From a virus, in IMG/VR virus record IMGVR_UViG_3300009154_000010, positions 1 through 39,756 of that record: DNA of 39,756 nucleotides; one strand, 5' to 3'. Positions 12,409-25,141 of this stretch are shown here, piece by piece. Each line of letters opens with the position of its first letter. Position 1 is the first letter of the stretch. The position numbers and the translations under genes are program-made. Below the pieces are notes generated by a model that saw only the letters and a program-made list of their open reading frames with translations, made no database searches and was not told the DNA's origin.

Positions 12409-12655
12409 CAGCCTGCTTTGCTCAGTTTAAACGCATGCTCGCATTGCATGCTGGCAGTGCAGCGCTAGGGCAGGGCAGGACTAGGCGCTGGCTTGGCGCT
12501 GACTCGCTCGGCGCATCAATAGCGCCCCGACCTAGCAATCGCAGCAGCAATCGCAGCGCATGTTTAAACTGGTTGAACTTTCAACTACTTTCCAGTGGCT
12601 CAGCCTGCATGCGTGGCATCTCACTATGTGAGATTCTCAGGATTGGCTTCATAAG

Positions 12656-12876
12656 TTACTCGCTGGTAACTCTCTAAAGTCAGTTGTTTAATATCACTTT
12701 AGAGCATCGCAACATTTCAACATCGCTAAAGTCAGCCAAAATCAATGGTTTTAGAGCCTTACTCGCCAGTAACTTATTTTTTTACACCCACCGCAGCATC
12801 ATCAATCGGAGGCAATCGCATCAACATCAACATCGGCAAAGTGCCCTAAAGTCAGTATAAATCAATGGTTTTAGAG
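12656..12876. repeat. Three 31-bp repeats and two 16-bp palindromes, possible iterons or operators
   Basis: The 31-bp elements are at 12674-12704, 12726-12756 and 12846-12876. All begin CTAAAGTCAG and end TTTAGAG or TTAGAG. The second and third share AAATCAATGGTTTTAGAG exactly and lie exactly 120 bp apart. In the first copy the arms CTCTAAAGT and ACTTTAGAG form a perfect 9-bp inverted repeat. Two related palindromes, TTACTCGCTGGTAACT (12656-12671) and TTACTCGCCAGTAACT (12759-12774), are interleaved with them. Repeated spaced palindromes between divergent units suggest an origin or a set of regulator sites. Confidence 0.6.
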
Positions 12877-12956
12877 GGTGCTTGTAATTTTTTTAAATCT
12901 CGTTTACCTTTATCCCAGTGGAACAATCCACTACCGACTGGAAAGGTTTAAACATC

Positions 12957-13484
12957 ATGAGAAATCGTGAACAATGGCTTGCAGCGTTTGCTACTGCTGC
13001 TCGCCGACCAATCGCATCATCAATCCAAGGTGGAGGTGACGAGGAGGCAGCAATCCGCCTATCTTGTGGCTTCCCTCCAAAAGTGGGTCGCAAGGCTTCC
13101 ACTGCTGCAATCGTGCCACCAACCGCATCTCAGGACTTCACTGCCGAGATTTTCGTGGCTCCTACCGTTGACTCATCATCCGAGGTTGCCAAGGCAATCC
13201 TCCCACTGCTCCGCATCGCTCAATCAGGCAACTGGCGCTCAGCAGCGCCAAGCGTTGCCAAGCCACTGGACACGCTCCCAGTGTGGGCTGAATCAATCAT
13301 CCTCACACTCGGCGAGTATCCACACGCCAAAATTGAAATTGCGCCAGCAATCAAGCAAACAACTCGCCTCATCAAGGTTGCGTGTTTAAACGACAACTAC
13401 ATCGCACGAGTATCTCGCTCAACTCTTGAGAATCTCGGCGCTCCAATCTGCCCAGCATGCAATCAATCACTCGTGGAGGCTTAA
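12957..13484 (+). CDS. SprT-like family protein lacking the HExxH metalloprotease motif, 175 aa
   Basis: The order IRLSCGFP (residues 33-40), TAEIFVAPTVDSSSEVAKAIL (62-82), a LGEYPHAKIE segment (118-127) and a C-terminal Zn-ribbon-like end match a family of putative phage metallopeptidases. Its members read RVSCGWPS, EIFISP, VLxHELVHAAVG, LGxYPHA and CPECGYIAR. Here the HELVH position reads ILPLLRIAQSG, so the zinc-protease motif is gone. The ribbon keeps Cys143, Cys165 and Cys168 but has lost the fourth cysteine (CLNDNYIAR). The start at 12957 follows GGAAAGG; GTTTAAAC fills the spacer between that site and the ATG. It is the first gene of the early operon. It is probably non-catalytic, perhaps a binding or regulatory relic. 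Confidence 0.7.
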   Translation: MRNREQWLAAFATAARRPIASSIQGGGDEEAAIRLSCGFPPKVGRKASTAAIVPPTASQDFTAEIFVAPTVDSSSEVAKAILPLLRIAQSGNWRSAAPSVAKPLDTLPVWAESIILTLGEYPHAKIEIAPAIKQTTRLIKVACLNDNYIARVSRSTLENLGAPICPACNQSLVEA

Positions 13485-13486
13485 TC

Positions 13487-14230
13487 ATGACTACTTTCGG
13501 ACTAGAGTTTGAGGTCGCTGGACTCTCAACATCAGCAGCATCAGCAGCGCTCAATCGTGGCGGAATCGCTTGCGAGGAGCCACGCAATCAGCACATCGTC
13601 AACGAGAAGTGGACATCGGTCTATGACGGCTCAGTTCGTGGAGCCGAGGTCGTGTCACCAATCCTTGACCCAATCCGTTTAAACGAGGCTTCAACCGTTG
13701 CTCGCTTGCTCCTCGGAGCAGGTGGCAAGGTTGACCGCACAACTGGCTTCCATGTCCACATCGGAGCAGCAGAATTGACCCACGAGCACATCGCCCAGTG
13801 GTACATCAACTGGAATCTGCACCATGATGCAATCGGTGTGCTCGTTGCGCCAAGCCGTTTAAACAACCGTTTCTGCTCAGCGCTTGACCAAGCAGCAACC
13901 AATCGCAACGCCGAAAGAATCCGCAACGGCAACATCTCGGACTTCAACGGTGACCGCTACCACTCTTTCAATCTCCAATCCTTCCAACGCCATGGCACGC
14001 TGGAAATCCGCCTACATCAAGGCACACTTAACGGAGCAAAAGCCGTTGCGTGGGCAAAGTTCATTGATGCGTTTAAACAACTCAGCGAGAGCCGAATCAT
14101 CGGTGACCTCGGCACTGGCACCAACCTCCAAAAGTGCGAGAATCTCCTAGACCTGCTCCGCATCAACGGAAATCTTGACGAGCGCACCGCCAACTATCTC
14201 AAAGACCGAGCAGCATCCCTCAACGGATAG
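13487..14230 (+). CDS. Amidoligase family enzyme (glutamine synthetase-like fold), 247 aa
   Basis: Amidoligases of this class use ATP to join a carboxylate to an amine, forming an amide or peptide-like bond. Visible family features are GLEFEV at residues 5-10, DGS at 47-49, EVVSP at 54-58, GFHVHIG at 87-93 and TLEIRLHQGTL at 171-181. Together these give the acidic and His residues expected of the metal/ATP site of the GS fold. GGAGG precedes the ATG at 13487, two bases after the previous stop. A stand-alone glutamine amidotransferase follows 400 bp downstream and could supply ammonia or a glutamyl group. The substrate is unknown. Three GTTTAAAC copies lie within the gene. Confidence 0.8.
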   Translation: MTTFGLEFEVAGLSTSAASAALNRGGIACEEPRNQHIVNEKWTSVYDGSVRGAEVVSPILDPIRLNEASTVARLLLGAGGKVDRTTGFHVHIGAAELTHEHIAQWYINWNLHHDAIGVLVAPSRLNNRFCSALDQAATNRNAERIRNGNISDFNGDRYHSFNLQSFQRHGTLEIRLHQGTLNGAKAVAWAKFIDAFKQLSESRIIGDLGTGTNLQKCENLLDLLRINGNLDERTANYLKDRAASLNG

Positions 14231-14239
14231 CAGCAGGCA

Positions 14240-14284
14240 GCCTGCCCCAAGTGGGTAAGCGAGGGAGCGTTACCCTCGGCAGGC
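14240..14284 (+). other. Two-stem RNA hairpin in the gap after the amidoligase gene
   Basis: GCCTGCC (14240-14246) pairs with GGCAGGC (14278-14284), and inside it GGGTAA (14253-14258) pairs with TTACCC (14270-14275). No T-tract follows, so it is not a standard terminator. It lies between the amidoligase and a tiny membrane-protein gene and may stabilise, process or attenuate the transcript. Confidence 0.5.
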
Positions 14285-14336
14285 ACAAACGGAATCGGGA
14301 AATCCTCGGTACCGTTTAAACGAAAGGACTGGAATC

Positions 14337-14450
14337 ATGAACAGCATCAACTACTGGTCAATCATTGATGGTCGTGTGCTTCTACTGCTGGCAATCATTG
14401 CTGGCGTGTGGGTTCATTACCTACTGACAGGTAACAATCATGGCGAATAA
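14337..14450 (+). CDS. Small single-pass membrane protein, 37 aa
   Basis: The reading frame begins MNSINYWSIIDGR and continues with a hydrophobic stretch (VLLLLAIIAGVWVHYLL, residues 14-30), so it should span the membrane once with a short polar tail. AAAGGACTGGAATC precedes the ATG, a reasonable ribosome-binding site. It overlaps the next gene by 11 nt. No family is recognised. Small early membrane proteins in phages often alter host envelope or division functions, but nothing here shows that. Confidence 0.55.
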   Translation: MNSINYWSIIDGRVLLLLAIIAGVWVHYLLTGNNHGE

Positions 14451-14616
14451 TAACAAAAAGTTATACATCGTTGAAGGTGTAGATTTCTATGGGCGAAAGT
14501 TCACTGGACTATACACAGAAACAGAGGCTCGGTACCTCGCAGCCACTGACCGTTTAAACACAGTGTATGACCGCACAACACAGGTTGTGGTACACTTCAC
14601 TCAACAGACCAACTAA
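14440..14616 (+). CDS. Hypothetical protein, 58 aa
   Basis: The protein starts MANNNKKLYIVEGVDFYGRKFTGLY and reads as a small alternating beta-strand domain (LYIVEGVD, VVVHFTQQTN). It begins inside the preceding gene and ends 28 bp before the glutamine amidotransferase. One GTTTAAAC at 14552 is read as Leu-Asn. No family is recognised. Confidence 0.6.
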   Translation: MANNNKKLYIVEGVDFYGRKFTGLYTETEARYLAATDRLNTVYDRTTQVVVHFTQQTN

Positions 14617-14644
14617 CAACTAACACAGACTGGAGAAATAAATT

Positions 14645-15451
14645 ATGTGTGGAATCGCAGGCTTCTGCCTTAACCCAAAGCACAACAACAATCAGGTTGA
14701 CCTTGCATCGCAGATGCTCATGGACATTGAACATCGTGGCTATCACGCCACAGGTGCAGCATGGATTAACCCAAAGACTGGGCATCGTGTAATCACCAAA
14801 GCGCCAGTGGCTGCAACCAAGTTCATCACGACAGATGCAGGCAAGCGAATCTGTTTAAACGCACAGACCGCTATCTTGCACACTCGTTGGGCAACTCAAG
14901 GTGACCCAAAGGTTAACGACAACAACCACCCAATCCCTCGTGGCAAGATTGTGTTGACACACAACGGACACATCAGCAACGATGACCAACTGTTTAAACA
15001 ACTCAAGGTCAAGCGCCATGGTCAGGTAGATAGCGAGGCAGTCGCAGCACTGATTGCATTTACATCAGCGCCCATTGCCGAGGTGCTCTCTCGTGTACAA
15101 GGCACTGCTGCCTTGGCTTGGATTGAACAGAACAAGGGCAACACATTGCACCTTGCTCGTATTAACTCATCGCCATTGTGGATTGGTCAGACCAAGACAG
15201 GCTCGCTCGTCTATGGTTCAACCGAGGACACCATTGAGAACGCATCTATCATGCTTGATTCAGTGCTTGACTGGGCATACGCAGCAGCCGAGGGTGAATA
15301 CTTCAAGGTTAAAGACGGCAAGATTGTGGAGCATCAGAACTTCACACCGTTTAAACAAGTGTATGCCAACAACTGGCGCAAGTATTCTTCTAGTAACTGG
15401 GATGATGAGCACGAGTACGCATCTAGTTATTACGACAAGCACCTGTTCTAA
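14645..15451 (+). CDS. Stand-alone class II glutamine amidotransferase, 268 aa
   Basis: Class II glutaminase domains release ammonia from glutamine with an N-terminal cysteine. The protein begins MCGIAGF, so Cys2 becomes the nucleophile after Met removal. HRGYHATG at 30-37, LHTRWATQGD and THNGHISND match the glutamine-binding and oxyanion motifs (compare HRGxDxxG, RWAT and HNG in GlmS/PurF-type enzymes). No synthetase, isomerase or transferase domain follows, so it probably works with a partner. The amidoligase upstream in the same operon is the obvious candidate. GGAGAAATAAATT precedes the start, and a strong terminator lies 40 bp after the stop. Confidence 0.85.
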   Translation: MCGIAGFCLNPKHNNNQVDLASQMLMDIEHRGYHATGAAWINPKTGHRVITKAPVAATKFITTDAGKRICLNAQTAILHTRWATQGDPKVNDNNHPIPRGKIVLTHNGHISNDDQLFKQLKVKRHGQVDSEAVAALIAFTSAPIAEVLSRVQGTAALAWIEQNKGNTLHLARINSSPLWIGQTKTGSLVYGSTEDTIENASIMLDSVLDWAYAAAEGEYFKVKDGKIVEHQNFTPFKQVYANNWRKYSSSNWDDEHEYASSYYDKHLF

Positions 15452-15490
15452 GTTTCGGTTGGTCGCGCACCTGCATCATCCGATAAAGAT

Positions 15491-15520
15491 AGCCCCCGCT
15501 TCGGCGGGGGTTTTTCTTTT
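15491..15520 (+). terminator. Strong intrinsic terminator
   Basis: CCCCCGC (15493-15499), a TTCG tetraloop and GCGGGGG (15504-15510) are followed by TTTTTCTTTT. This closes the transcript that carries the amidoligase and amidotransferase genes. Confidence 0.92.
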
Positions 15521-15886
15521 ATCCATCATACTAATTCCAGGTACATCTGGAAAGTGTTAACTGTTTAAACAACAAAAACAAATCTTCCCTGGGACTCTGG
15601 AATACACAAGCGTTTAAACAATGGTGGTGGGTCTGGTGGTGGTGGTGGTGGTGGTGGGTCTGGCACTCACAGCACCAGACTGCTAACGACATGCGTTTAA
15701 ACAGTAGGTTTGCATGTCATGATAGGATGGTTTTATCCACCTCAAGGTGGATAAAACTAAAGAAACATGCAGTCTTGTTTAAACAAAAAAACTTTTTTAA
15801 ATCTGCATGTAAATCCTTGACTTATGCATACCGAACTGGAATCCTAGGACATGTAGCAACTCGGCTACATAGAACAAAGGACTGGT
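15521..15886. promoter_or_regulatory. 366-bp intergenic control region with four GTTTAAAC copies
   Basis: No convincing gene. Between the terminator and the next operon lie GTTTAAAC copies at 15563, 15612, 15695 and 15777, and a (GGT)n tract at about 15622-15658. There is a perfect 12-bp inverted repeat at 15730-15757 and a 7-bp hairpin ATGTAGC/GCTACAT (15851-15870). TTGACT at 15817-15822 is a plausible -35 box, with AATCCT after 17 bases as a weak -10. The region probably holds the promoter and operators of the second early operon. The 21-codon frame in the GGT tract is discussed separately. Confidence 0.6.
15730..15757. repeat. Perfect 12-bp inverted repeat with TCAA loop
   Basis: The left arm is G plus TTTTATCCACC (15730-15741), the loop TCAA (15742-15745), and the right arm is its exact complement (15746-15757). 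No T-run follows beyond the arm itself, so an operator, or a terminator using the arm's own T-rich 3' end on either strand, are both possible. Confidence 0.65.
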
Positions 15887-16063
15887 ATGTATCTAACAAC
15901 AGGCGACATCATCGCCACAATCATCGCCCTATTGGGTGCGCTCACAGTGGTGGGCTTAGCAATTAAAGAAAACATCCGACTCAACGGTGAGAACGCATGG
16001 CTACGCCACCGCAATCGCCAACTCAATAAGGTGGTGGAAGCACATGACCTCAGCAACTTCTAA
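15887..16063 (+). CDS. Small membrane protein with polar tail, 58 aa
   Basis: The frame reads MYLTTGDII followed by a hydrophobic stretch to about residue 26 (ATIIALLGALTVVGLAI), then a charged helical tail (RLNGENAWLRHRNRQLNKVV). One membrane span with a cytoplasmic coiled segment is likely. AAAGGACTGGT precedes the ATG. It overlaps the following gene by 20 nt and opens the second early operon. No family is recognised; a spanin, holin or signalling role cannot be decided. Confidence 0.65.
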   Translation: MYLTTGDIIATIIALLGALTVVGLAIKENIRLNGENAWLRHRNRQLNKVVEAHDLSNF

Positions 16064-16304
16064 GACATACGAGGGTTGGAAAAACTACAACACATGGAAC
16101 ATTGCGCTATGGATTAACAACGACTATCCGTTATACCTAAGCGCCTGCCTATTCATGAAAGATTACAAAGGCGCAAAGCCTTATCGTGATTGGCTCAAGG
16201 TTACAGGGCTTGAGGATAAAGCAACCATTGACGGATGCAAGTACAACTCAAGCGACCTTGCATACGCCGAACTCAACGACATGATGAAAGGACTGGTGCT
16301 CTAA
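16044..16304 (+). CDS. Conserved actinophage-type small protein, 86 aa
   Basis: The start is placed at the ATG at 16044, so the protein begins MTSATSKTYEGWKNYNTWNI. The motif GWKNYNTWNIALWINND is typical of a widespread family of small phage proteins of unknown function (GWxNYxTWNVALWIxND). The remainder is an alpha-helical domain (YRDWLKVTGLEDKATIDG, then SDLAYAELNDMMKG). The stop overlaps the next start as TAATG, so the two are translationally coupled. Confidence 0.75.
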   Translation: MTSATSKTYEGWKNYNTWNIALWINNDYPLYLSACLFMKDYKGAKPYRDWLKVTGLEDKATIDGCKYNSSDLAYAELNDMMKGLVL

Positions 16305-16619: not shown

Positions 16620-16974
16620 AGGTGCAGTGCTATACACAGATGGAACATACGAGGAGAAAGAGTTTAAACAACTCTCCGATATGCAAGCAGCAGTGGATGG
16701 ATTGATTGAACCCATCGGCATGCATGATTACTATGGTGCTGGCGTATGCCAAGGCTATGTAAACGAGGAGGGATTGCTCAAACAACTACCTCTCAACTCG
16801 GTAGCCAGTGCGCTCTCGTTCATGTTCGGTAACGCACCTACGATTGTGGGCAACATGATTGTCTTGGGCTTAACCGATAGCCATGGCAATGACACTGACA
16901 TCCCTGCTGACATACTTACTTTCATTAGCCGAGTGTGTGGTAACCGTGCGAAACTGGAGGCTGAGTATGTTTAA
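16612..16974 (+). CDS. DUF3846-like protein, 120 aa
   Basis: The pattern of an N-terminal strand pair (AVLYTDGTYEEKEF), a helix with AAVDGLIEPI, then YVNEEGLLKQLPLNSVAS and PTIVGNMIVLGLTD resembles DUF3846. That domain is common in phages and plasmids of Actinobacteria (conserved GGxIE, NEEGK, LPxN and IVG motifs). Function is unknown. Its GTTTAA end forms part of a GTTTAAAC site that also encodes the start of the next gene, giving an 8-nt overlap. Confidence 0.75.
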   Translation: MPKGAVLYTDGTYEEKEFKQLSDMQAAVDGLIEPIGMHDYYGAGVCQGYVNEEGLLKQLPLNSVASALSFMFGNAPTIVGNMIVLGLTDSHGNDTDIPADILTFISRVCGNRAKLEAEYV

Positions 16975-17404
16975 ACGCATCCACCCGCATGCCCGACTGT
17001 GGATGGCAACAACTCTTGTACTCGGAATCTTTCTCGTGTTTAATCCACGAGTGCAGATGGTTGCACATCCACCGCAAGGTACTCTCATTGCTTACTATCA
17101 CAACGACTACCAACGCTTCGCAGTGGAGCAACTAATCAAGCAAGATAAGATTGAACAGTACCCATGCCTCTATGAATTGTGGATGCGTGAGTCAAACTGG
17201 CGACCACAATCACACAACAATCGTGGTGGCGCACATGGAATCGCACAACTCAAACCTGAAACATGGAAACTTATCGGCATACATCAAACCGATGATGGAT
17301 ATACACAGGTAATTGCTGGGCTACGCTACATAGACAGGCACTACGGCAAGACTGGTGGTATCTGCAAGGCATACGCTCATCACTTAGCAGTGGGGTGGTA
17401 TTAA
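16967..17404 (+). CDS. Membrane-anchored lysozyme/transglycosylase-like protein, 145 aa
   Basis: Residues 11-25 (LWMATTLVLGIFLVF) form a signal anchor after a basic start (MFKRIHPHAR). The rest matches the lytic-transglycosylase/Rpf-like fold: LWMRESNW with probable catalytic Glu75, AHGIAQLKPETW at 89-100, GLRYIDRHYG at 118-127 and a VGWY end. The start at 16967 was chosen for its signal sequence; an upstream in-frame ATG at 16883 lies inside the previous gene. Peptidoglycan cleavage at the outer face of the membrane is predicted. Its place in an early operon, away from the lysis genes, suggests wall remodelling or superinfection control rather than final lysis. Confidence 0.75.
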   Translation: MFKRIHPHARLWMATTLVLGIFLVFNPRVQMVAHPPQGTLIAYYHNDYQRFAVEQLIKQDKIEQYPCLYELWMRESNWRPQSHNNRGGAHGIAQLKPETWKLIGIHQTDDGYTQVIAGLRYIDRHYGKTGGICKAYAHHLAVGWY

Positions 17405-17748
17405 TGGAAATTAAACACCACAAAGTTATAGAAAAGCGAGAGGTTCGCAACCGAGGTAAGGATGTGCAAGCGTTTAAACTACGGTGGAATCGTAGGCTTA
17501 CCGAGGAGGCTGCATGTAAGGGGTTAGATGTTGAATTGTTTTACCCTGACAAAGACATCTTTACCCCCGATGAGGAAAAGGTATTCGCTCGCATGTGTGT
17601 GGAGTGTCCAGTCATGGAGATGTGCCTAGAGTGGGGGCTAGTCCATGAACGCAGTGGCGTATGGGGTGGAACTACCCCATTTCGTAGGCACGCAGCAAGA
17701 AAAGCCCTCAACTTGCAGGTGTCTGACCCACGAGGCATGAACATGTGA
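17404..17748 (+). CDS. whiB: WhiB-family iron-sulfur transcription regulator, 114 aa
   Basis: WhiB proteins bind a 4Fe-4S cluster and the main sigma factor and occur in Actinobacteria and their phages. The four cysteines are Cys38, then Cys65-x2-Cys68-x5-Cys74 (CVECPVMEMC), followed by the turn GVWGG at 85-89 and a basic segment (FRRHAARK). The ATG at 17404 overlaps the previous stop as TAATG; a GTG three codons upstream is less likely. It ends the rightward early operon. It probably redirects host transcription and is the best single indicator of an actinobacterial host. Confidence 0.92.
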   Translation: MEIKHHKVIEKREVRNRGKDVQAFKLRWNRRLTEEAACKGLDVELFYPDKDIFTPDEEKVFARMCVECPVMEMCLEWGLVHERSGVWGGTTPFRRHAARKALNLQVSDPRGMNM

Positions 17749-17810
17749 TAGGTTGTATTCATTGGGCATCTCCTATGTGAAGGGGAAGCATGTAGTAGGT
17801 GCCCATACAA

Positions 17811-17848
17811 AAGCCCCCTTGCGGATTCCAGTCTTTGCGAGGGGGCTT
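17811..17848. terminator. Bidirectional terminator between convergent early operons
   Basis: AAGCCCCCTTGC (17811-17822) pairs with GCGAGGGGGCTT (17837-17848) with one G.T wobble and a 14-nt loop. Short T-runs follow on both strands. It sits between the WhiB gene and the converging dNMP kinase gene. A further inverted repeat, TGGGCA/TGCCCA (17763-17805), lies just upstream. Confidence 0.8.
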
Positions 17849-17855
17849 CTGTATT

Positions 17856-18386
17856 TTACAAACTTAATTGTTTAGCAAGCATAAACACTTCATCAGACAA
17901 ATCATCAAGCGTGCCATCGTTATAGATAACATGTTTAAACATAAAGTTATCCATCGCATGTTCGCTCTTGTGTCCATTAACTGGTGGATGATTGTGTCTG
18001 TTTACACGCCACACTTGACCGCCATACTGCATGATTTCATTAGCCTCATTAGGGAAACGAACATCAGCAAATACAATCTTGGTTGATTCCATTTTATCAA
18101 AGGCTTGTTGCACCCAAAAGTTATCACCAAATTGCTTGCGACCCACATCAGTACCAAAGACTTGAAGTAATCTGCGTACCTCAGGGTTAGCCTTGGCTAC
18201 ATCCCATCCATACTCATCAACTAAATCAGCAACACGATTGCCACCTTCAACAAAAGGATTCAATGTATAGATTGCATCACGCATCGGGTCAGCAAATGCC
18301 ATCCGTGTATAGCCATAGTTTAAACACAACAGTTCAGCAACTGTGTCTTTACCTGACTGTGCATACCCACTCAAACCAATAATCAT
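17856..18386 (-). CDS. Deoxynucleoside monophosphate kinase, 176 aa
   Basis: The P-loop GYAQSGKDT is at residues 7-15, after a hydrophobic strand (MIIGLS). FADPMRDAIYTLNP and VFADVRFPNEANEI match the phage dNMP kinase family (T4 gp1-like and actinophage enzymes). It phosphorylates dNMPs to feed phage DNA synthesis. Its ATG overlaps the previous stop as ATGA. It is the last gene of the leftward replication operon, ending at a bidirectional terminator. Confidence 0.9.
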   Translation of the reverse strand: MIIGLSGYAQSGKDTVAELLCLNYGYTRMAFADPMRDAIYTLNPFVEGGNRVADLVDEYGWDVAKANPEVRRLLQVFGTDVGRKQFGDNFWVQQAFDKMESTKIVFADVRFPNEANEIMQYGGQVWRVNRHNHPPVNGHKSEHAMDNFMFKHVIYNDGTLDDLSDEVFMLAKQLSL

Positions 18387-18544
18387 TTCTTTATGTATCC
18401 AATCTGCTTGCGTTTAAACCACACTATCTTATCTCCAGCCAGGTAAATGTAATAACCTATGTCGTTTAAACAGATGCCTACATAATACAACGGCAGTCCC
18501 AACCAGTTCCATGGTTTCATGCGTTGGTATTTAGGTCTAATCAT
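18383..18544 (-). CDS. Small membrane-associated protein, 53 aa
   Basis: The protein begins MIRPKYQRMKPWNWLGLPLYY, with an aromatic, hydrophobic middle (LYYVGICLNDIGYYIYLAG) between basic ends. It may lie in or across the membrane. An ATG further upstream in frame (18592) lies inside the sigma-like gene; 18544 gives an 8-nt overlap like other pairs here. Two GTTTAAAC copies (18412, 18464) lie within 60 bp. No family is recognised. Confidence 0.6.
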   Translation of the reverse strand: MIRPKYQRMKPWNWLGLPLYYVGICLNDIGYYIYLAGDKIVWFKRKQIGYIKK

Positions 18545-19187
18545 TATCGGGTTTCCTGTATCTACGATTGTTCCATTGAGGTTGTTCTCCACCTAGCCTG
18601 TCTTGCAACTTGGTAAGCGCACGACTAACACGCTTACGCAAAGCCTCCTCACTCACGGAGTATTCAATGGCAAGCGCATCAAAGTCTGTGCCACCGCCAT
18701 CAAATCTGCGTTGAAGAAGAAGATTATCTTGTTCGTTTAAACGCTTAAGCGCACCGCTAACATCAGACAACATAGCCTCACGATTCATGCCCTCGCTTGG
18801 CTTGCTTGATTTACTAATGAACTCATCACCTTTAGGTGTTGCGCTCTCTACCCACTGGTCATAGCGCCACACATCTTTAAGCAACTCTTGTAGTACCTCG
18901 TGTGTGTAATAGAAAGCATCTGATGGTGATGACTTACTCTTGTATGCACGCTCACGAGCAGCAAACTTCTGTGACTCATTGTTAAATGTGCGCCGAAGTT
19001 TAAACACTAATGAGTCTTGTTCCTCCCACTCCTCAATTTTGTGCCAGTGTTCTACTGCCCACAGAAGTAAGTGTTGGTACACATCATCAACGGACACAAG
19101 ATTGCGATGGATGCGAGCGCATCGTGTTGCACTGTAGCGTGCCACTTTGTATACGCTTTCCCATAACGGTGCGTTATTCATGTCCAT
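18537..19187 (-). CDS. Sigma-factor-like protein, 216 aa
   Basis: Residues 33-58 (VDDVYQHLLLWAVEHW and onward) resemble sigma region 2. Residues 150-196 form a region-4-like HTH (LNEQDNLLLQRRF, DFDALAIEYSVSEEALRKRV). The C-terminus has a basic tail. This is the layout of short ECF-like or sigma-K-like factors in actinophages. It probably steers host RNA polymerase to phage promoters, perhaps with WhiB. Its start overlaps the upstream gene by 14 nt; ATG at 19181 is an alternative. One GTTTAAAC codes Phe-Lys, another Leu-Asn. Confidence 0.75.
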   Translation of the reverse strand: MDMNNAPLWESVYKVARYSATRCARIHRNLVSVDDVYQHLLLWAVEHWHKIEEWEEQDSLVFKLRRTFNNESQKFAARERAYKSKSSPSDAFYYTHEVLQELLKDVWRYDQWVESATPKGDEFISKSSKPSEGMNREAMLSDVSGALKRLNEQDNLLLQRRFDGGGTDFDALAIEYSVSEEALRKRVSRALTKLQDRLGGEQPQWNNRRYRKPDND

Positions 19188-19569
19188 GTTTAAGTTCCTT
19201 CATTGTTGTTAGTAAGTCCTCAATCGTAATTAAAAAACCTTTACTCCAGTTCGGTGGTATCTCGCAAGTAATCTCTCTGCCAAACTCCCTGATTGCATAA
19301 TGCACATGGTCTGTTGGCACCATGACAACGCCACGCTCAAGGACAAACGCCCAATACTCGGCAGTAGTAACCATCAAACCCGATGGCTCCCACGATTTAC
19401 TCTTGTTAAACCAACACTCAACTTCTATGTAAATGTTGTTCGTATTCCACCACTTACGGTCACGCTTGACCTCAATAGTCTTGCCTTCTGTTAGTAAATC
19501 CTCAACTAATTGTTCGCCCTTACGACCATAGCCAAAGTCCAAATCAAATGATGAGTTCTTTACCATCAT
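19174..19569 (-). CDS. PD-(D/E)xK nuclease-like protein, 131 aa
   Basis: A helix with GRKGEQLVEDLL (Glu19, Glu23) precedes TIEVKRDRKWW (Glu33-x-Lys35) and IYIEVEC (Glu49). This is the strand order and acid/Lys spacing of the restriction-endonuclease fold. The protein is too small for an added specificity domain. Its ATG follows the primase stop directly; that stop is itself part of a GTTTAAAC at 19570. Likely roles are trimming or resolving DNA, or attack on host DNA. Confidence 0.65.
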   Translation of the reverse strand: MMVKNSSFDLDFGYGRKGEQLVEDLLTEGKTIEVKRDRKWWNTNNIYIEVECWFNKSKSWEPSGLMVTTAEYWAFVLERGVVMVPTDHVHYAIREFGREITCEIPPNWSKGFLITIEDLLTTMKELKHGHE

Positions 19570-19571
19570 GT

Positions 19572-20189
19572 TTAAACGCCCGCCCTCTTACGCAAACCAT
19601 CTGCGCCTTCCATTAGGTAGACATCGTTAACATCCTGACCCTCAGGCATGAACACAGGGAATACATTGTCTAGTTCTCTACTTAAATGTTTAGCCATCTC
19701 ACGCCCTGCGTTGTCACCATCGCACAGCAAGATAACCTTTGACCAATCAGCAAGCACACGAGAATAAAAAGATTTCCAGTTGTTAGCCCCAGGCAAACCA
19801 ACCGCACTGAACCCTGCTTGTGTAGCAACAACAGTATCAAGTTCACCTTCACAGATAGCAAGCACTTCGGAGTCATCACCCAGTGCGCCGATGTTAAAGA
19901 TGTGTGTCGTAGCCCCTGGTCTACTCATGTATTTCGGACCTGTATCTGCGTTTAAACTACGGAAGCGGATGTCAATGACTCCTGTTGGTGTGATGTATGG
20001 GATTGCTAACTTGCCAGTGTAAGGCTCGTGTCCAATCTCAGGCTCTCTTACGAAGCCGAGGCGAAATGTACGAGCGGTCTGTTCTGTGATACCTCTGCTC
20101 GTCAGGTACGGAAGTATCTCCGCTAGGTTTCTTTCGTAGTTCTCCGTTGCTCTCGCCAGTAATTCTTTCTGCGATTTGCTTAGCCTCAT
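19572..20189 (-). CDS. DnaG-like primase, TOPRIM catalytic half, 205 aa
   Basis: The TOPRIM motifs are clear: AICEGELDTV with Glu115, then ILLCDGDNAGREMAKHL with Asp157 and Asp159. The N-terminal part (YLTSRGITEQTARTF, LAIPYITPTGVIDIRFR, GPKYM) is the usual region before TOPRIM. There is no zinc domain; that is encoded by the overlapping upstream gene in another frame. The ATG at 20189 (or a TTG at 20198) lies 150 nt before the upstream stop. It makes RNA primers for phage DNA replication. A frameshifted fusion with the zinc half is possible. Confidence 0.88.
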   Translation of the reverse strand: MRLSKSQKELLARATENYERNLAEILPYLTSRGITEQTARTFRLGFVREPEIGHEPYTGKLAIPYITPTGVIDIRFRSLNADTGPKYMSRPGATTHIFNIGALGDDSEVLAICEGELDTVVATQAGFSAVGLPGANNWKSFYSRVLADWSKVILLCDGDNAGREMAKHLSRELDNVFPVFMPEGQDVNDVYLMEGADGLRKRAGV

Positions 20190-20415
20190 TAAACCCAACT
20201 CCTTCTCGTTTCATAATAAGTGAATACACATCACCAGCCATCTCACAACCAAAGCAACGGAAGCCACCGTTGTCTATGTTTAAACGGGCTGACTTAACTC
20301 TATCACCATGGAAAGCGCAGCGCAGTGTGAACCAGCCACGCCTACCATGTGGTATCTTAAATCCATAGTGCTCAAGAACTTTAACGATGTCATGTTTAGA
20401 GTTTTGCAAGGACAT
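20038..20415 (-). CDS. Primase zinc-binding half (CHC2-like), 125 aa
   Basis: CAFHGD (Cys33-x2-His36) and FRCFGCEMAGD (Cys54-x2-Cys57) form the CHC2 zinc finger of DnaG primases, followed by the conserved helix (NEAKQIAERI). After residue about 88 the sequence turns into an Arg/Ser/Pro-rich tail (ELRKKPSGDTSVPDEQRYH). That tail is the out-of-frame reading of the start of the TOPRIM gene, so it may be unstructured or bypassed by frameshifting. The start overlaps the resolvase end by 20 nt. Confidence 0.85.
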   Translation of the reverse strand: MSLQNSKHDIVKVLEHYGFKIPHGRRGWFTLRCAFHGDRVKSARLNIDNGGFRCFGCEMAGDVYSLIMKREGVGFNEAKQIAERITGESNGELRKKPSGDTSVPDEQRYHRTDRSYISPRLRKRA

Positions 20416-20761
20416 CACCCAGTCGTTGAACTACATAGGCATCCTCAATTCCTTTGTTAGATGCCTTGATAATTACCAATGGTGTTGGTGTTACCTTCAT
20501 GTTCTTAGACTTACGATAGTTCTCTGCTTCAACATACGCTTCACGCAACCAACCCGACAGGTCAACCTTGCCGTCACGCCTTGGTGCCTTGGCTTCAACC
20601 ACATAGATGTCGTTGGTTGCTGGTAGAAATACATCACCAATGTCATTGCGACCAGCACGAGGTAAGCGTTGTGCGTTTAAACCCTGTTGCATAAACCAAT
20701 CAGCAAGGTCAATCTCAAATGCTGCACCTCTACGCTTGTTACTCTGCTGTTGCGTTGCCAT
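20396..20761 (-). CDS. Holliday-junction resolvase-like nuclease, 121 aa
   Basis: Hjc-type PD-(D/E)xK signature: RRGAAFEIDLADWF with Glu16, RLPRAGRNDIGDVFLP with Asp43, and YVVEAKAP with Glu57-x-Lys59. It cleaves branched DNA during phage recombination or before packaging. I set the start at 20761, where AAAGGAG precedes the ATG; a longer frame upstream lies inside the glycosyltransferase gene. It overlaps genes on both sides. Confidence 0.82.
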   Translation of the reverse strand: MATQQQSNKRRGAAFEIDLADWFMQQGLNAQRLPRAGRNDIGDVFLPATNDIYVVEAKAPRRDGKVDLSGWLREAYVEAENYRKSKNMKVTPTPLVIIKASNKGIEDAYVVQRLGDVLAKL

Positions 20762-21485
20762 TGGCTTGCTCCTTTGTCTGTCTTTCTGCTGCTTGGGCAG
20801 CCTGCCAGTACAGTGCATAGTAGTTATCGTCATAGGCAAAGCGCTTCATGTGTTTAACACGAGCACCTGTATGTGCATAAACATCAACGCCTGCCTTCTT
20901 AAGATTGCGGAAGAACACAATGTCCTCGCCAACAAACTTATCTCCAATGTTTTCTTGTTCGGCAAACACTGAATAGTCAGGGGATAAAGCACGCAACTTA
21001 GGCACAACGCTGCGATGCATGAGTGTTAAACCCAAGCCAGCGCAGTCAACCTTAATGACTTCACTTGCTGGTAGTGGGTGAACATAACGGATACTAAACT
21101 CCTCGCCTGTTTCATTAAACAAAGCAGGCATAGGTTGCATTAGTGATGACTCCATCTGTTTAGAGATAAAGTAAACGCCACTAACAACTGGCTTGGTGTT
21201 CTTGTCTGCTATTTTCCATAGCATCTCAAGCACATCAACGGTTAACACAATGTCTGAGTCAACCCATAACAACCAATCTGTTTTAACTTGGTCATACCAC
21301 ATGTCTAGTAACGCTTGGCGTTGTCTGCCAATCTGATTACCTTGCACACGGATAGCATTGTTGACTGCCAATTTGCGAGTAGGCGCAGTGATGGTGGTAT
21401 ACATAATGCCTTCGGCAAACTTGCCATCAACCATACCGTTGTCACACCAACCAATAGATAATGTTTCGTTAGAACTGTGACTCAC
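20739..21485 (-). CDS. GT-A glycosyltransferase-like protein, about 248 aa
   Basis: WLLWVDSDIVL carries a DxD motif (Asp76, Asp78 from the GTG start), the metal/nucleotide-sugar site of GT-A transferases. FVGEDIVFFRNLKKAGVDVY matches the later acceptor-side motif, and the end is Ala/Glu-rich. GGGAG before a GTG at 21485 suggests that start; an ATG at 21506 is an alternative. Phages use such enzymes to glycosylate DNA bases, virion proteins or host surface polymers; which of these cannot be told. It lies among replication genes, which slightly favours DNA or regulation. Confidence 0.75.
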   Translation of the reverse strand: MSHSSNETLSIGWCDNGMVDGKFAEGIMYTTITAPTRKLAVNNAIRVQGNQIGRQRQALLDMWYDQVKTDWLLWVDSDIVLTVDVLEMLWKIADKNTKPVVSGVYFISKQMESSLMQPMPALFNETGEEFSIRYVHPLPASEVIKVDCAGLGLTLMHRSVVPKLRALSPDYSVFAEQENIGDKFVGEDIVFFRNLKKAGVDVYAHTGARVKHMKRFAYDDNYYALYWQAAQAAERQTKEQANGNATAE

Positions 21486-21834
21486 TAATCTCCCTTTCCG
21501 ATTCATCAAGAACTTGGAGAGCGTTCTCTCCCATTTGTTTAAACGAGTTAGACATGTTAGCCAACTGTTCTGCTATCTCTTTGGTGCACTCAAACCCATG
21601 GTCATCGTTTAAATGTTCTGCTAACTGTGTTACATAGTCAGCAAACTGCATTGACTCTAACCAAATCTGATGTGGGTCATAAATCTTTTTAGCGACATCC
21701 TCCATCCGTTCAAGGACTTGTGGTATCTCCGATTTCAGTGCTTCCTTTATCTCCATTGGCAGGTTCAGTTTCTGTACCATCTGTTCCATCTGTTGGGGTG
21801 AGATTGATAGTGCCAGTCCTAATGTATTCGTCAT
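21469..21834 (-). CDS. Hypothetical helical protein, 121 aa
   Basis: The protein starts MTNTLGLALSISPQQMEQM and is almost wholly helical and charged, with long amphipathic segments (EIKEALKSEIPQVLERMED; EIAEQLANMSNSF). The start is placed at 21834. This leaves a 125-nt out-of-frame overlap with the preceding gene; a longer frame from 21903 would overlap even more. No family is recognised. Its place between the ATPase and the glycosyltransferase suggests a replication accessory role. Confidence 0.6.
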   Translation of the reverse strand: MTNTLGLALSISPQQMEQMVQKLNLPMEIKEALKSEIPQVLERMEDVAKKIYDPHQIWLESMQFADYVTQLAEHLNDDHGFECTKEIAEQLANMSNSFKQMGENALQVLDESEREISESQF

Positions 21835-22051
21835 GTTCTTTGTCTGTGATGTCTTTGAACTGACCAGTTTCTTTATTTTGCCAAACAAGTGCCCTCCAAC
21901 CAACGGTGTATACGAGTGTCTTAGGCATCAGCATTAACTGCGCCTTGATGTCTATGAGGAGAGGTCTTGTTTCAACTGCAATCTCGTCTTTGACTTTTGA
22001 TGCTGGGATTTCTCCTGCATTTTCAACTACTGTAAGTTCCCACTTACTCAT
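21710..22051 (-). CDS. Hypothetical protein, 113 aa
   Basis: Residues 1-78 look folded (MSKWELTVVENAGEI, VETRPLLIDIKAQLMLMP, YTVGWRALVWQNKETG). The last 35 residues are low complexity (PTDGTDGTETEPANGDKG). That tail is the segment overlapping the next gene in another frame, which suggests it tolerates change. AGGAGAACAC precedes the ATG. No family is recognised. Confidence 0.65.
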   Translation of the reverse strand: MSKWELTVVENAGEIPASKVKDEIAVETRPLLIDIKAQLMLMPKTLVYTVGWRALVWQNKETGQFKDITDKEHDEYIRTGTINLTPTDGTDGTETEPANGDKGSTEIGDTTSP

Positions 22052-22059
22052 GTGTTCTC

Positions 22060-22857
22060 CTAAATTAACTGCATTGGTTCGTATGAAATAACATCATTGA
22101 TTTGCATTGATGCTGGTTCATACGATAACCACACTGGTGTACCACCAGTTGCATCTGCTGGACCGTATCGGTTCTTAACTGCACAGACTCCCATTGTAGA
22201 AATCTGATTATGTACGGTAAGAATTAAACTCGGAGTCTGCGCCACCTTTCCATGCAGCGCTTTCTGTGGGGGACATGGGTTTCCTGGCACGCCTTCGCTA
22301 GTGTGGTGACACACAACTACTGCTGCTCCAGTTTCTCTAGCCCACCACTTAAGTTCTTTCATTAAGGTACGCAATCCGCCCCACTCATCTTGTGAATCCA
22401 TCGTTACATCTACTGCGTTATCTAAAACGATTAAACGCACATCCTCACCTAGTCGCTCACGAGCAGCAAGGACTGCATCCTCAATGTCCTTAAGCGTTGG
22501 TGATGAATCAAACTCCCACATGATGTGGTCAGCAGGCTTGAGCATTTGTGCTGCCCAATCTCTATCTGCTTCCATCAATGGCTCAACATCTTGTTGCTGT
22601 TTACCCGTAAGTAATGCAAGTAGACGAAGGCTCATGGTGTGTGAGTGTGTATCTGCTGAGATGTAAAGTGTTGGAACTTTTGCACGGACTGCCAAGGACA
22701 GAGCAAGCGTTGACTTGCCTGCCCCTGGCGGTCCAGCAATCATGCTTACCTCGCCGTAACGGATTGCTATTTGTTGAGCAGCAAGTGATTGCCACACAAC
22801 AGGAAGCGTGGCACCACCCTGTGATGCTGTTCTAATAGCACGGCTGAGTAGGCGCAT
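22060..22857 (-). CDS. RecA/DnaB-like ATPase, probable replicative helicase, 265 aa
   Basis: Walker A is GPPGAGKST at residues 42-50 and Walker B is LIVLDN at 142-147. WWARETGAAVVVCHHTSEG resembles the motif before the DNA-binding loops, and KNRYGPADATGGTPVWLSYEP matches the DnaB-type arginine-finger end. There is no N-terminal DnaB domain, so it is a compact RecA-fold motor as in many actinophages. It lies in one operon with the primase halves, SSB-like protein and Cas4-like nuclease. A RecA/Sak4-type recombinase is the alternative. Confidence 0.78.
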   Translation of the reverse strand: MRLLSRAIRTASQGGATLPVVWQSLAAQQIAIRYGEVSMIAGPPGAGKSTLALSLAVRAKVPTLYISADTHSHTMSLRLLALLTGKQQQDVEPLMEADRDWAAQMLKPADHIMWEFDSSPTLKDIEDAVLAARERLGEDVRLIVLDNAVDVTMDSQDEWGGLRTLMKELKWWARETGAAVVVCHHTSEGVPGNPCPPQKALHGKVAQTPSLILTVHNQISTMGVCAVKNRYGPADATGGTPVWLSYEPASMQINDVISYEPMQLI

Positions 22858-22860
22858 GGG

Positions 22861-23277
22861 TTATGCAGGCACCTTGTTTTGGCAAGCCTGTCCCTGAGGC
22901 TGAGGGCATGCATAGAATCCCTTGTATGGGCGACCAGTTGCTTTAGCGATACCTGCTGGAACCAAACGCATTGGTCCTGCACCGCATGTGCACTGTGGTT
23001 GTGGTCCACCTGCTGGCTTGTAACCTGCAACTGGAGCCTGTGCTACTACCTGTGCATTAGGAAATGCTGCAGCAATGGTTGCTGCTGGGGATGGTGCTGC
23101 TGATGGGGTAGCCATACCTTCAACGGTTTGTTCAAGGTCAATCAACGCAGCAAGGCGTTCGGTAAGTGCATCTAGCAAACCATCTAGTTCAATGGCATCG
23201 TTGGCACGAAGGTTAATCAACATGCCATCTTTCTTTGTCTTGAAGTTAATTTGAATTGCTGCTTCGGTAGTGCTCAT
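22861..23277 (-). CDS. Zinc-finger protein, possible ssDNA-binding, 138 aa
   Basis: The N-terminal 50 residues form a small alpha/beta domain (AIQINFKTKKDGMLINLRAND). An Ala/Pro-rich linker follows (residues 57-90). The C-terminus is a GRF-type zinc finger: Cys96-x-Cys98, then GRPYKGFYAC with Cys124, and Cys132. GRF fingers bind single-stranded DNA. The stop is 3 nt before the ATPase start, and the start overlaps the Cas4-like stop as ATGA. It could act as the phage SSB or a helicase/nuclease accessory. Confidence 0.65.
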   Translation of the reverse strand: MSTTEAAIQINFKTKKDGMLINLRANDAIELDGLLDALTERLAALIDLEQTVEGMATPSAAPSPAATIAAAFPNAQVVAQAPVAGYKPAGGPQPQCTCGAGPMRLVPAGIAKATGRPYKGFYACPQPQGQACQNKVPA

Positions 23278-24128
23278 TTGTTTTCTCCTATAGGTATTTC
23301 AGGGTAGAGGTGAGAATCTTTACCACCAACTGCATAGCACGCACTGTTAACTGAGCATGTGCCACACATGAATCCAACTGATGGGATAAAGATTTTATTT
23401 TCCATAGCCAACTCAAATCCTTTAGCCCATGAACCAAGTCGTGACTCGGTATAACGGTCTAAGTTTTCAGGTTGTGTGAGTTCACCAGTTCGCGCCATAA
23501 AGTACGAGCCAAGTGAAGGGCGAACACCAAAGGTTTTCTCCACAAGAATTGCGTAGATACCTAGTTGAGTTAGATCAGCAGGTGGTTTACTACCTGTCTT
23601 GATGTCCACAATAACTAACTCGCCTGTTGGTGCAACCATCAATCGGTCAAGGAACGCCTTAATAGGCACGCCTCCAACCTCCTGATTAAGTTCTGTTTCA
23701 ATAGCCTCACTGCCATCAGGTAACTGATACATGTTGAAGCCACTGTCCTGACGGAACTGTGTCCAAAAGTTAACCATCTTAGGACCATTATCAAACCACC
23801 AACTTGTATCCTCTTTGTTTGGATACGCCTTGGTAGCCCGACCACCTGCACGCCAAGGCATACCGTTGTCGGTGTCCTTGTAATTGACATCCCAAAAATG
23901 CGAGAAGGCTGCAATCTCTGAGAAGTCATCTTGATTAGGTTGACCATGGTATAAGCGGTCATAGTTTTCGGTTGCCTCATGCACCGCCTTACCCCCTGCT
24001 AACCAGTAGGATGGGGCTTCGGGCACATGCTGGATTCGTGATAGGTAGAACTGCCAACCACAACTGAGCCATGTATTTAGGGCTGAGTGGCTGACATAAT
24101 TCTTGCCTGTTACTTGTTCAAGTGTCAT
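23274..24128 (-). CDS. Cas4/RecB-like exonuclease with putative Fe-S cysteines, 284 aa
   Basis: The PD-(D/E)xK nuclease motifs are GKAVHEATE (His50), AFLDRL (Asp161), LVIVDIKTG (Asp175-x-Lys177) and the QLGIYA helix. One N-terminal cysteine (Cys23) and three C-terminal ones (Cys255-x2-Cys258-x5-Cys264) match the 4Fe-4S arrangement of Cas4 and AddB. It is the first gene of the leftward replication operon. Such phage nucleases resect DNA ends for recombination. No CRISPR genes or repeats are present, so a CRISPR role is not implied. Confidence 0.85.
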   Translation of the reverse strand: MTLEQVTGKNYVSHSALNTWLSCGWQFYLSRIQHVPEAPSYWLAGGKAVHEATENYDRLYHGQPNQDDFSEIAAFSHFWDVNYKDTDNGMPWRAGGRATKAYPNKEDTSWWFDNGPKMVNFWTQFRQDSGFNMYQLPDGSEAIETELNQEVGGVPIKAFLDRLMVAPTGELVIVDIKTGSKPPADLTQLGIYAILVEKTFGVRPSLGSYFMARTGELTQPENLDRYTESRLGSWAKGFELAMENKIFIPSVGFMCGTCSVNSACYAVGGKDSHLYPEIPIGENK

Positions 24129-24139
24129 TTATCTTCCTT

Positions 24140-24211
24140 TCAATAGGGGAGATTACTACACAAAGTCTGCTCTATTGAACGACACGCCGAAGGCGAATTA
24201 CACACATGTAA
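24140..24211. promoter_or_regulatory. Divergent promoter/operator region
   Basis: This gap lies between the leftward replication operon and the small rightward cluster. TCAATAG (24140-24146) pairs with CTATTGA (24172-24178). CGCC-GAA-GGCG and ATTACA-CACA-TGTAAT are further palindromes, and ATTTAAAC is a near copy of the iterated octamer. These suggest operators. A clear -35/-10 pair could not be assigned. Confidence 0.45.
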
Positions 24212-24219
24212 TTTAAACA

Positions 24220-24495
24220 GTGGTTACACTCCTGTTCGTGCAGCGAAAGGGTGTAATAGCGAGGCTCCTCAAGAGCCGAGCGAAGCCACCGCTAATTGTA
24301 AACTTGCGTGGTATTCCCTCAAGTGTGTGCCTTAATTGTGGGCACCTTGTCTTTCAAGTGGGATGCATGTTTGAAGATAATGATATTAGCCTATGGTTTA
24401 CCGATGCAAAATGCGCCGATTGTGGAGCGCTGGTAACCGTACCTACACCAGCGGATGATAATGAAAATAATTTTAATACTGATTGTTTTGACTGA
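24220..24495 (+). CDS. Zinc-ribbon protein, up to 91 aa, start uncertain
   Basis: The reliable part is the C-terminal 60 residues: CLNCGHLVFQVG, a DISLWFTD strand and CADCGALVTVPTP. These give two CxxC knuckles about 30 residues apart, a pattern frequent in small actinophage proteins. GTG at 24220 or 24238 and TTG at 24304 are all possible starts. A hairpin GGCTC-CTCAA-GAGCC lies inside the 5' part, which may mean translation begins after it. The Asp/Asn-rich C-terminus overlaps the next gene. Confidence 0.6.
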   Translation: MVTLLFVQRKGVIARLLKSRAKPPLIVNLRGIPSSVCLNCGHLVFQVGCMFEDNDISLWFTDAKCADCGALVTVPTPADDNENNFNTDCFD

Positions 24496-24604
24496 ACACT
24501 ATGCACTATACAAAGTTGCGTTTAAACTTGGTGTAGTGCAAGAGCAGCAAGCCAGACTTAGGCGTTTAAACGCATTGAAGAAGGTTTTGCGTACTCGTGA
24601 GTAA
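24455..24604 (+). CDS. Small membrane-anchored basic protein, 49 aa
   Basis: The frame reads MIMKIILILIVLTEHYALYKVA and ends in a basic helix (QARLRRLNALKKVLRTRE). The N-terminus is a short hydrophobic anchor. It overlaps the zinc-ribbon gene by 41 nt and the next gene by 8 nt. Two GTTTAAAC copies (24530, 24564) lie only 34 bp apart within it, read as Phe-Lys and Leu-Asn. No family is recognised. Confidence 0.5.
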   Translation: MIMKIILILIVLTEHYALYKVAFKLGVVQEQQARLRRLNALKKVLRTRE

Positions 24605-24776
24605 CTATGACTACCGATGCCCCAAGTGTGGTGTTGTTTACACAGTGGAGCGTTCTATACATGCAGAGGCTGACGCACCTATGTGTTCAGCCAACTGCAA
24701 TACATTGATGGAAAGAATCTGGACTGCACCGCCAGTAAAGTTTAATGCCTCAGGGTTCTATTCAACAGGGGGATAA
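24597..24776 (+). CDS. FmdB-like zinc-ribbon protein, 59 aa, GTG start
   Basis: YDYRCPKCGVVYTVERSI with a second knuckle (CSANC), then LMERIWTAPPVKFNASGFYSTGG, matches the FmdB-type zinc ribbon family (YDYxCxxCG and a terminal FxGxGFYxTD-like motif). The GTG at 24597 overlaps the previous stop. Function is unknown; such ribbons may bind nucleic acid or polymerase. Confidence 0.75.
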   Translation: MSNYDYRCPKCGVVYTVERSIHAEADAPMCSANCNTLMERIWTAPPVKFNASGFYSTGG

Positions 24777-25113
24777 GCCCAAGCAGCATCGTCTGCTACT
24801 CAAGCACCCTGAGAAAAGGTGGGGTGTTTGTGCAGTGTGTGGACCAACAAGACTTAAGTTAAAGCAGCGTGGTTATTGGTCATGCCGAACCAAGTCCAAC
24901 ATGAATCGTGTCAAGTTAGCCAAGTATAAAAAAGATTACTGCGAGGAGTGTGGCTTTATACCACTACACCGTAGCCAGTTAGACATAGACCACATAGATG
25001 GCAACCATCAGAATAATGACATGACAAATCTACAGACACTATGTGCTAACTGCCACCGATTAAAAACTCAAGACAATAAAGATTGGGAAAGCAAAAAAGC
25101 CCCCCGCATTTAA
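24745..25113 (+). CDS. HNH endonuclease, 122 aa
   Basis: The core LDIDHIDGNHQNN (Asp82-His83), TNLQTLC (Asn95) and CANCHR (His104) form the beta-beta-alpha metal site. Cys66-x2-Cys69 and Cys100-x2-Cys103 bind structural zinc. An additional pair (Cys29-x2-Cys32) lies near the N-terminus. It may be a free-standing homing nuclease or a packaging/recombination nuclease. The stop lies in the loop of the following terminator. Confidence 0.88.
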   Translation: MPQGSIQQGDKPKQHRLLLKHPEKRWGVCAVCGPTRLKLKQRGYWSCRTKSNMNRVKLAKYKKDYCEECGFIPLHRSQLDIDHIDGNHQNNDMTNLQTLCANCHRLKTQDNKDWESKKAPRI

Positions 25114-25126
25114 GCGAGGGGCTTTT
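25095..25126. terminator. Bidirectional terminator between HNH and lysis genes
   Basis: AAAAGCCCCCCGC (25095-25107) pairs with GCGAGGGGCTTTT (25114-25126) with one mismatch and a 6-nt loop. T-runs lie on both strands. It ends both the rightward cluster and the whole leftward late unit. GTTTAAAC follows at 25129. Confidence 0.9.
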
Positions 25127-25141
25127 CTGTTTAAACTATTA

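Follow-up and report, generated by a model that had tools for sequence, protein, structure and literature searches.

The phage record IMGVR_UViG_3300009154_000010 of IMG/VR, analyzed here as a whole (the window; 39,756 nt, GC content 44.6%), contains 44 exact copies of the octamer GTTTAAAC, and the pattern of these copies is real and under selection. In several unrelated phage groups, words of the type GTNTAAAC, to which GTTTAAAC belongs, go together with a single gene family, that of the SprT-like proteins, and the window phage has such a gene at the head of its rightward early operon. Judging from the sequences compared, we consider it fairly probable that the SprT-like protein reads GTTTAAAC through a C-terminal zinc ribbon with the motif Q-x-T-R (QxTR) and regulates transcription, that of its own gene included, from operators dispersed over the genome.

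Over-representation and conservation of the word

The window, DNA of a virus of lake bacteria, has a 123-bp direct terminal repeat (1-123 = 39634-39756), giving a circle of 39,633 bp. Its genes include those for WhiB, a sigma factor, a terminase, a deoxynucleotide kinase and a pair of primase proteins. An earlier note on this DNA had counted the 44 copies by hand, 43 of them on the circle, against a chance expectation of about one, and our recount gave the same numbers. Markov models of order 0, 1, 2, 3 and 4 predict 0.9, 1.0, 1.3, 2.3 and 6.4 copies, respectively, and not dozens (models of higher order absorb the word itself), which rules out compositional bias as the source of the excess; GTTTAAAC is the most enriched 8-mer of the genome. 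The concentration in the early half described in the note was also recovered, with 33 copies within 12425-25136 and 10 on the remainder of the circle, and so was the rarity of one-mismatch variants, each of which occurs 0-7 times (both strands summed). The preferred flanks are those given before, YGTTTAAACR, with C or T at position -1 in 71 of 88 half-sites.

Copies are found both in non-coding and in coding DNA, as the note had stated: 13 of 43 sites touch non-coding DNA (3.6 expected, p 3e-5), and the coding copies occupy only the two frames without an in-frame TAA (16 and 14 copies). The copy at 12946 indeed lies between a ribosome-binding site (GGAAAG upstream) and an ATG at 12957. Selection on the sites, which the note had assumed, is seen in five close relatives, where GTTTAAAC sites were kept in 156 of 199 comparisons (78%); the corresponding value over the whole set of octamers in these alignments is 29%.

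Replacement of the word among relatives

Relatives were found by terminase and ATPase searches, and 25 near-complete phage records were compared. Twelve of them have 28-58 copies of GTTTAAAC each, the count of 58 (G004; L171, L173) including duplicates, as about 2.5 kb with the SprT and amidoligase genes is repeated at the record ends. Twelve records with the same gene order (the sister group) have 0-10 copies of GTTTAAAC, but 27-45 asymmetric words with the core TTAAGACA, oriented with transcription (153:39). In the sister-group records G006-G025 (for example, L194 and L183), TTAAGACA is often followed by a Shine-Dalgarno sequence (TTAAGACAGGAGA), at about one per early gene. Record G017 has no GTTTAAAC and 36 copies of GTCTAAAC (orientation 20:13); GTCTAAAC and GTGTAAAC, the latter found in cultured phages, occur in both orientations.

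On gene trees, the word type changes mostly 5-8 times for structural genes and mostly once or twice for early genes; since the structural genes switch word type far more often, the word moves together with the early region and not with the virion or the host.

Several candidate readers of the word were rejected: the sigma factor, which is 84% identical and has nearly the same recognition helix across phages with different words, and WhiB, which does not split cleanly by word type. Within the window family the amidoligase/amidotransferase module follows the word, but unrelated carriers lack it; it is probably not part of the word system. Partition sites were one option named in the note; no ParB-like protein was found among the early proteins scanned with PHROGs and Pfam. 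The scan of host contigs gave a single match, a beta-proteobacterial contig (L225) of a metagenome-assembled genome with a 47% identical terminase, which is probably a mis-binned phage.

A gene family common to unrelated carriers

A scan of viral sequences for three closely spaced copies of GTTTAAAC recovered relatives of the window and also unrelated phages, including freshwater records of two sizes (63-65 kb, 46-54 copies; 30-38 kb, 37-45 copies). Profiles of all gene families of the window group were run against the unrelated carriers, and the only family common to all of them, besides distant terminase and primase matches, was the SprT-like open reading frame (ORF; 188 aa at 12918-13484, with the probable true start at 12957). 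It is likewise the only family common to three groups, namely the window group, the freshwater phages of 30-65 kb and the Arthrobacter and Microbacterium phages of clusters AZ and EH, with E-values of about 1e-17 to 1e-41 across the groups; the family profile matches the AZ/EH proteins at 1e-21 to 6e-28, a homology that extends to the C-terminal zinc ribbon. A scan with a single SprT-like protein as the query gave two loci. The carriers span host phyla, with actinobacterial as well as alphaproteobacterial hosts, and include Dinoroseobacter, Streptomyces, Arthrobacter and Planktophila-type phages. The earlier note overlooked the link between the word and a gene that lies within its own flagged region.

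The 15 phages of INPHARED with the nearest SprT-like proteins show the same association. In the AZ/EH phages GTGTAAAC is a top 8-mer (14-27 copies vs 0.1-0.7 expected); Streptomyces phage Crosby has 38 copies (<0.1 expected) and Dinoroseobacter phage R5C has 10 copies of GTTTAAAC (about 0 expected). Quenya, Coltrane and Bordetella phage MW2 have the word once or not at all, and the alignment shows that these three are exactly the cultured phages lacking the K-Q-x-T-R motif of the C-terminal zinc ribbon, while Q-x-T-R is retained in all 12 word-positive ones, all with GTNTAAAC. The same host species yields both outcomes (Percival with the word, Quenya and Coltrane without it), which speaks against the host as the cause. 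The AZ/EH carriers encode serine integrases, near which the SprT-like gene is located. Other repeats were also seen in these phages: Arthrobacter phage VroomVroom (L499) contains the canonical bacterial parS core, GTTTCACGTGAA, 12 times besides 18 copies of GTGTAAAC, and L493, L494, L496 and L497 each have their own 12-bp repeats in 6-9 copies (AGAAGGTTGCCC, CTGGCCATCTTC, AGAAGACCGCCT and AGGAGTGCGCCT), possibly associated with gene starts.

The association was also found in the reverse direction, from the protein motif to the word. A word-blind scan for KKQxTRM codons gave 79 contigs (GC content 29-70%), or 80 with L233, which also matched; three of the 80 do not encode SprT. An excess of GTNTAAAC (p<1e-3) was observed in 59 of the 80 contigs and in none of 26 control contigs, and of all 8-mers, GTTTAAAC was enriched in more KKQxTRM contigs than any other (46 of 74 at p<1e-5). 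In the sister scan, for GRNTNxIK, 67 contigs had that SprT type, many of them close kin; 61 have an excess of TTAAGACA and none has more than three copies of GTTTAAAC. The contigs in these association tests are related by ancestry to an unmeasured degree. For a base-to-residue code there is only a hint, confounded by kinship: Cys in T-type versus Val in G-type proteins at one alignment column.

The zinc ribbon and the protease domain

In the window protein the position of the protease motif HExxH reads PLLRI, and thus the motif is lost, whereas the C-terminal KQTTR zinc ribbon is kept. Among phages selected by the word, all 55 have [KTS]Q[TSG]TR, and 6 of 56 have HExxH; HExxH is intact in the cultured carriers. 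Several phages with 15-47 sites (G016, L253, L271, L276, L304 and others) encode short proteins of 50-70 aa that consist of the ribbon only, G016 having 47 sites. Because QxTR is always kept, while HExxH or the whole domain is often lost, it is the ribbon and not the protease that goes with the word, and the protease is dispensable.

The AlphaFold2 (AF2) model of the window protein has a mean confidence (pLDDT) of 90.9. A sequence search of PDB gave no significant match for the SprT-like protein, and a SprT-like relative with HExxH shows a weak likeness to minigluzincin peptidases in fold comparison. The window protein does not match Pfam PF10263; intact SprT-like relatives score 13.7-20.3 bits on this profile (gathering score 25.6).

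Placement of the sites

A site is present at most 120 bp upstream of 49 of 103 SprT genes (14.6 expected, p 6e-16), including 13 of 13 window-group phages and 8 of 10 cultured phages; by its position, this enrichment appears to be a sign of autoregulation. In cluster EH, 15 promoters have a site in the spacer (nine in Zeta1847, four in IAmGroot and two in Percival) at a nearly fixed offset, 4-5 bp past a TTG-type -35 element, mostly TTGCGC (at most 0.04 expected per phage). For example, one Zeta1847 promoter has TTGCGC, GTTTACAC in the spacer and TATGAT. A strict promoter scan was near-empty because the -35 element of EH phages is TTGCGC. As far as sequence can tell, this placement is the geometry of an operator. 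Outside EH spacers, the site recurs between the Shine-Dalgarno sequence and the ATG.

Powerpuff, a temperate and homoimmune phage of cluster AZ, has no identified repressor (PMC8758107). It has 27 copies of GTGTAAAC, its SprT-like gene is two small genes away from the integrase, and a site is located 44 bp upstream of the SprT-like gene; for these reasons the SprT-like protein is a strong candidate for the missing immunity repressor of the cluster AZ phages.

The genes and sites of the window are as follows; the sites are exact matches to the word and have no assigned strand ('.').

12957..13484, + strand: SprT-like protein of 175 aa, encoded at the head of the rightward early operon and proposed to regulate by binding DNA at specific sites (basis: sole family common to three unrelated GTNTAAAC phage groups; alignment; AF2 model)
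13353..13484, + strand: C-terminal zinc-ribbon segment KQTTRLIKVACLNDNYIARVSRSTLENLGAPICPACN, proposed recognition element
13487-14230, + strand: amidoligase, same operon as the SprT-like gene
14645-15451, + strand: glutamine amidotransferase (class II), same operon as the SprT-like gene
13..20 = 39646..39653 on the circle: GTTTAAAC, terminal repeat
4942..4949: GTTTAAAC, late unit
5502..5509: GTTTAAAC, late unit
6990..6997: GTTTAAAC, late unit
8423..8430: GTTTAAAC, late unit
12425..12432: GTTTAAAC, non-coding
12562..12569: GTTTAAAC, non-coding
12946..12953: GTTTAAAC, between the ribosome-binding site and the SprT-like ATG; possible autoregulatory site
13384..13391: GTTTAAAC
13677..13684: GTTTAAAC
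13857..13864: GTTTAAAC
14071..14078: GTTTAAAC
14314..14321: GTTTAAAC, upstream of the ATG at 14337
14552..14559: GTTTAAAC
14853..14860: GTTTAAAC
14992..14999: GTTTAAAC
15349..15356: GTTTAAAC
15563..15570: GTTTAAAC, intergenic cluster 15451-15887
15612..15619: GTTTAAAC, intergenic cluster 15451-15887
15695..15702: GTTTAAAC, intergenic cluster 15451-15887
15777..15784: GTTTAAAC, intergenic cluster 15451-15887
16662..16669: GTTTAAAC
16969..16976: GTTTAAAC, overlaps a start codon (ATGTTTAAAC)
17472..17479: GTTTAAAC
17933..17940: GTTTAAAC
18318..18325: GTTTAAAC
18412..18419: GTTTAAAC
18464..18471: GTTTAAAC
18735..18742: GTTTAAAC
18998..19005: GTTTAAAC
19570..19577: GTTTAAAC, just ahead of the leftward gene 19174-19569 and its start codon
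19950..19957: GTTTAAAC
20278..20285: GTTTAAAC
20675..20682: GTTTAAAC
21537..21544: GTTTAAAC
24520..24527: GTTTAAAC, intergenic
24564..24571: GTTTAAAC, intergenic
25129..25136: GTTTAAAC, intergenic
26464..26471: GTTTAAAC, late unit
26578..26585: GTTTAAAC, late unit
32400..32407: GTTTAAAC, late unit
33198..33205: GTTTAAAC, late unit
34658..34665: GTTTAAAC, late unit

Other elements were noted in the same region. A hairpin at 15736-15759 (TTATCCACCTCAAGGTGGATAA), amid the four sites of the intergenic cluster, is a possible origin-like element, and the non-coding leader ahead of the early operon (12680-12890) has repeats of the type AAAGTCAG..AATCAATGGTTTTAGAG. The gene at 19174-19569 is conserved in the phage family; its 131-aa product has an EVK motif resembling PD-(D/E)xK. 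The amidoligase and amidotransferase genes (13487-15451) are near genes for a glycosyltransferase and a deoxynucleoside monophosphate kinase and might modify nucleotides or the cell wall.

Proposed mechanism and alternative explanations

We propose that the SprT-like protein of the window phage would bind GTTTAAAC directly through its C-terminal QxTR zinc ribbon. Bound at promoter sites it would block initiation, and at sites within and between early genes it would probably act as a roadblock or silencer, similar to stoperators, repressing rather than activating transcription. Other versions of the protein would read GTGTAAAC, GTCTAAAC or TTAAGACA, and the phage genome would follow its protein. 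The role would probably be the shut-off of early genes in integrase-free phages and immunity in temperate ones; in the window phage it may be early-gene shut-off during lytic growth.

Several observations weigh against this mechanism. The label usually given to phage SprT-like proteins is protease or elongation protein, and no solved structure in PDB significantly matches the AF2 model of the window protein by fold. Many sites lie within coding DNA; none of the window sites is in a recognizable sigma-70 promoter spacer (0.45 expected), and the window's translated genes showed no integrase. Since the window has neither a recognizable promoter overlap nor an integrase that was seen, repression in this phage is extrapolated from other phages. 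In an unselected IMG/VR set, sites upstream of SprT genes are only mildly enriched (11 vs 6.3 expected). Finally, 18 of 77 SprT contigs, many of them short, do not reach p<1e-3 for the word excess, and two contigs (L521 and L553) encode KKQGTRM proteins and have no such excess.

The SprT-like protein could bind the sites for a purpose other than transcription control, either as a DNA-dependent protease guarding the genome at GTNTAAAC, which would remove silencers, stalled polymerase or crosslinks from phage DNA, or as a nucleoid-like architectural binder. SprT-like proteins and SPRTN are DNA-dependent metalloproteases (PMC5127644), and both the intact HExxH of the cultured carriers and the spread of sites through coding DNA fit such a role; however, 50 of 56 word-selected phages have lost HExxH, several that keep the sites lack the domain altogether, and the spacer geometry and the SprT-upstream sites indicate gene control, so that we regard this explanation as unlikely, if the most serious of the alternatives. 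A still smaller probability is given to the idea that some other factor, either from the host or a small phage protein that escaped detection, reads the word and merely co-occurs with SprT-like genes. Association differs from binding and profile searches can miss small ORFs, but the three groups have no second common family, and the association crosses host phyla and breaks exactly at the loss of QxTR.

A genome-wide host word of the HIP1 type carried into phages, which the earlier note had considered, would agree with the origin of many carriers from similar freshwater samples. Yet phages with the same gene order differ in their word and close relatives swap words while their structural genes recombine freely between word types; unrelated phages with hosts of other phyla share GTTTAAAC; and phages of one host strain have the word (Percival) or do not (Quenya, Coltrane), following the SprT-like protein. 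Judged by these comparisons among phages, a host word is highly improbable. We give equally little credence to a signal acting in RNA, for translation or decay near ribosome-binding sites: the frequent position between the Shine-Dalgarno sequence and the ATG and the adjacency of TTAAGACAGGAGA to Shine-Dalgarno sequences in the sister group would suit it, but the EH sites, being in promoter spacers, precede the start of the RNA, and GTCTAAAC and GTGTAAAC occur in both orientations.

Comparison with known systems

Dispersed binding sites of the stoperator type, the other suggestion of the earlier note, are supported and now have a candidate protein. Stoperators and an immunity repressor are described for cluster A mycobacteriophages (L5, TipsytheTRex; PMC9283540, PMC6550527). 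Both there and here, at least 20 near-identical sites are scattered over one phage genome and occupy short intergenic gaps; promoters with a site are found in cluster A and in the EH phages, and none was recognized in the window. From one related phage to another the word and the regulator change in step, and the phage-encoded regulator has about 180 aa. The sites differ: they are asymmetric 13-mers in cluster A and 8 bp long, often palindromic and in many cases within coding DNA here, and the transcription-oriented arrangement of cluster A does not hold for the palindromic GTTTAAAC, a clear bias being seen only in the TTAAGACA class. The protein has a SprT-derived zinc ribbon instead of the helix-turn-helix (HTH) fold of the cluster A repressor, and no HTH (Rep) repressor was found in PHROGs and Pfam scans of the window early genes. 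Moreover, the system described here is distributed over several unrelated phage groups and host phyla. It would work like cluster A stoperators but is not a member of that system: its site is shorter and mostly unoriented, and an HTH repressor is not what the word is linked to.

The proteins themselves belong to an annotated group, the phage SprT-like proteases or 'transcription elongation protein SprT' (PF10263). HExxH and a zinc ribbon are both present in intact members, whereas here HExxH is frequently inactivated or the whole protease domain missing. We found no site, operator or dispersed word described for phage SprT-like proteins in the literature; GTTTAAAC appears there with phage only in cloning and primer contexts, and GTGTAAAC not at all. 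No repeated operator or repressor is described for the cluster AZ/EH phages in PMC8758107. The Planktophila phages E7 and F5, which infect Candidatus Nanopelagicales (PMC10202952; OX376640/1), are relatives of the window phage type with WhiB, a sigma factor and a glycosyltransferase; they lack GTTTAAAC, and their enriched words (GTCTTAAGA, GACAGGAGA) resemble those of the sister group.

More tentatively, and with rather more doubt than for the regulator itself, we suggest a widespread and unrecognized class of phage master regulators, in which a QxTR ribbon derived from a DNA-dependent protease of the SprT type, and in some cases reduced to about 50 residues, would read GTNTAAAC (or TTAAGACA in the sister class) at dozens of dispersed sites and would also serve as the immunity repressor of AZ/EH phages. 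A protein family that is common in phages and so far labelled only as protease or elongation protein would thus gain a testable function and a binding site, and immune temperate actinophages a candidate for their missing repressor. The zinc-ribbon residues and the word may form a sequence code whose specificity was switched several times, and the word may mark carriers among uncultured phages by sequence alone.

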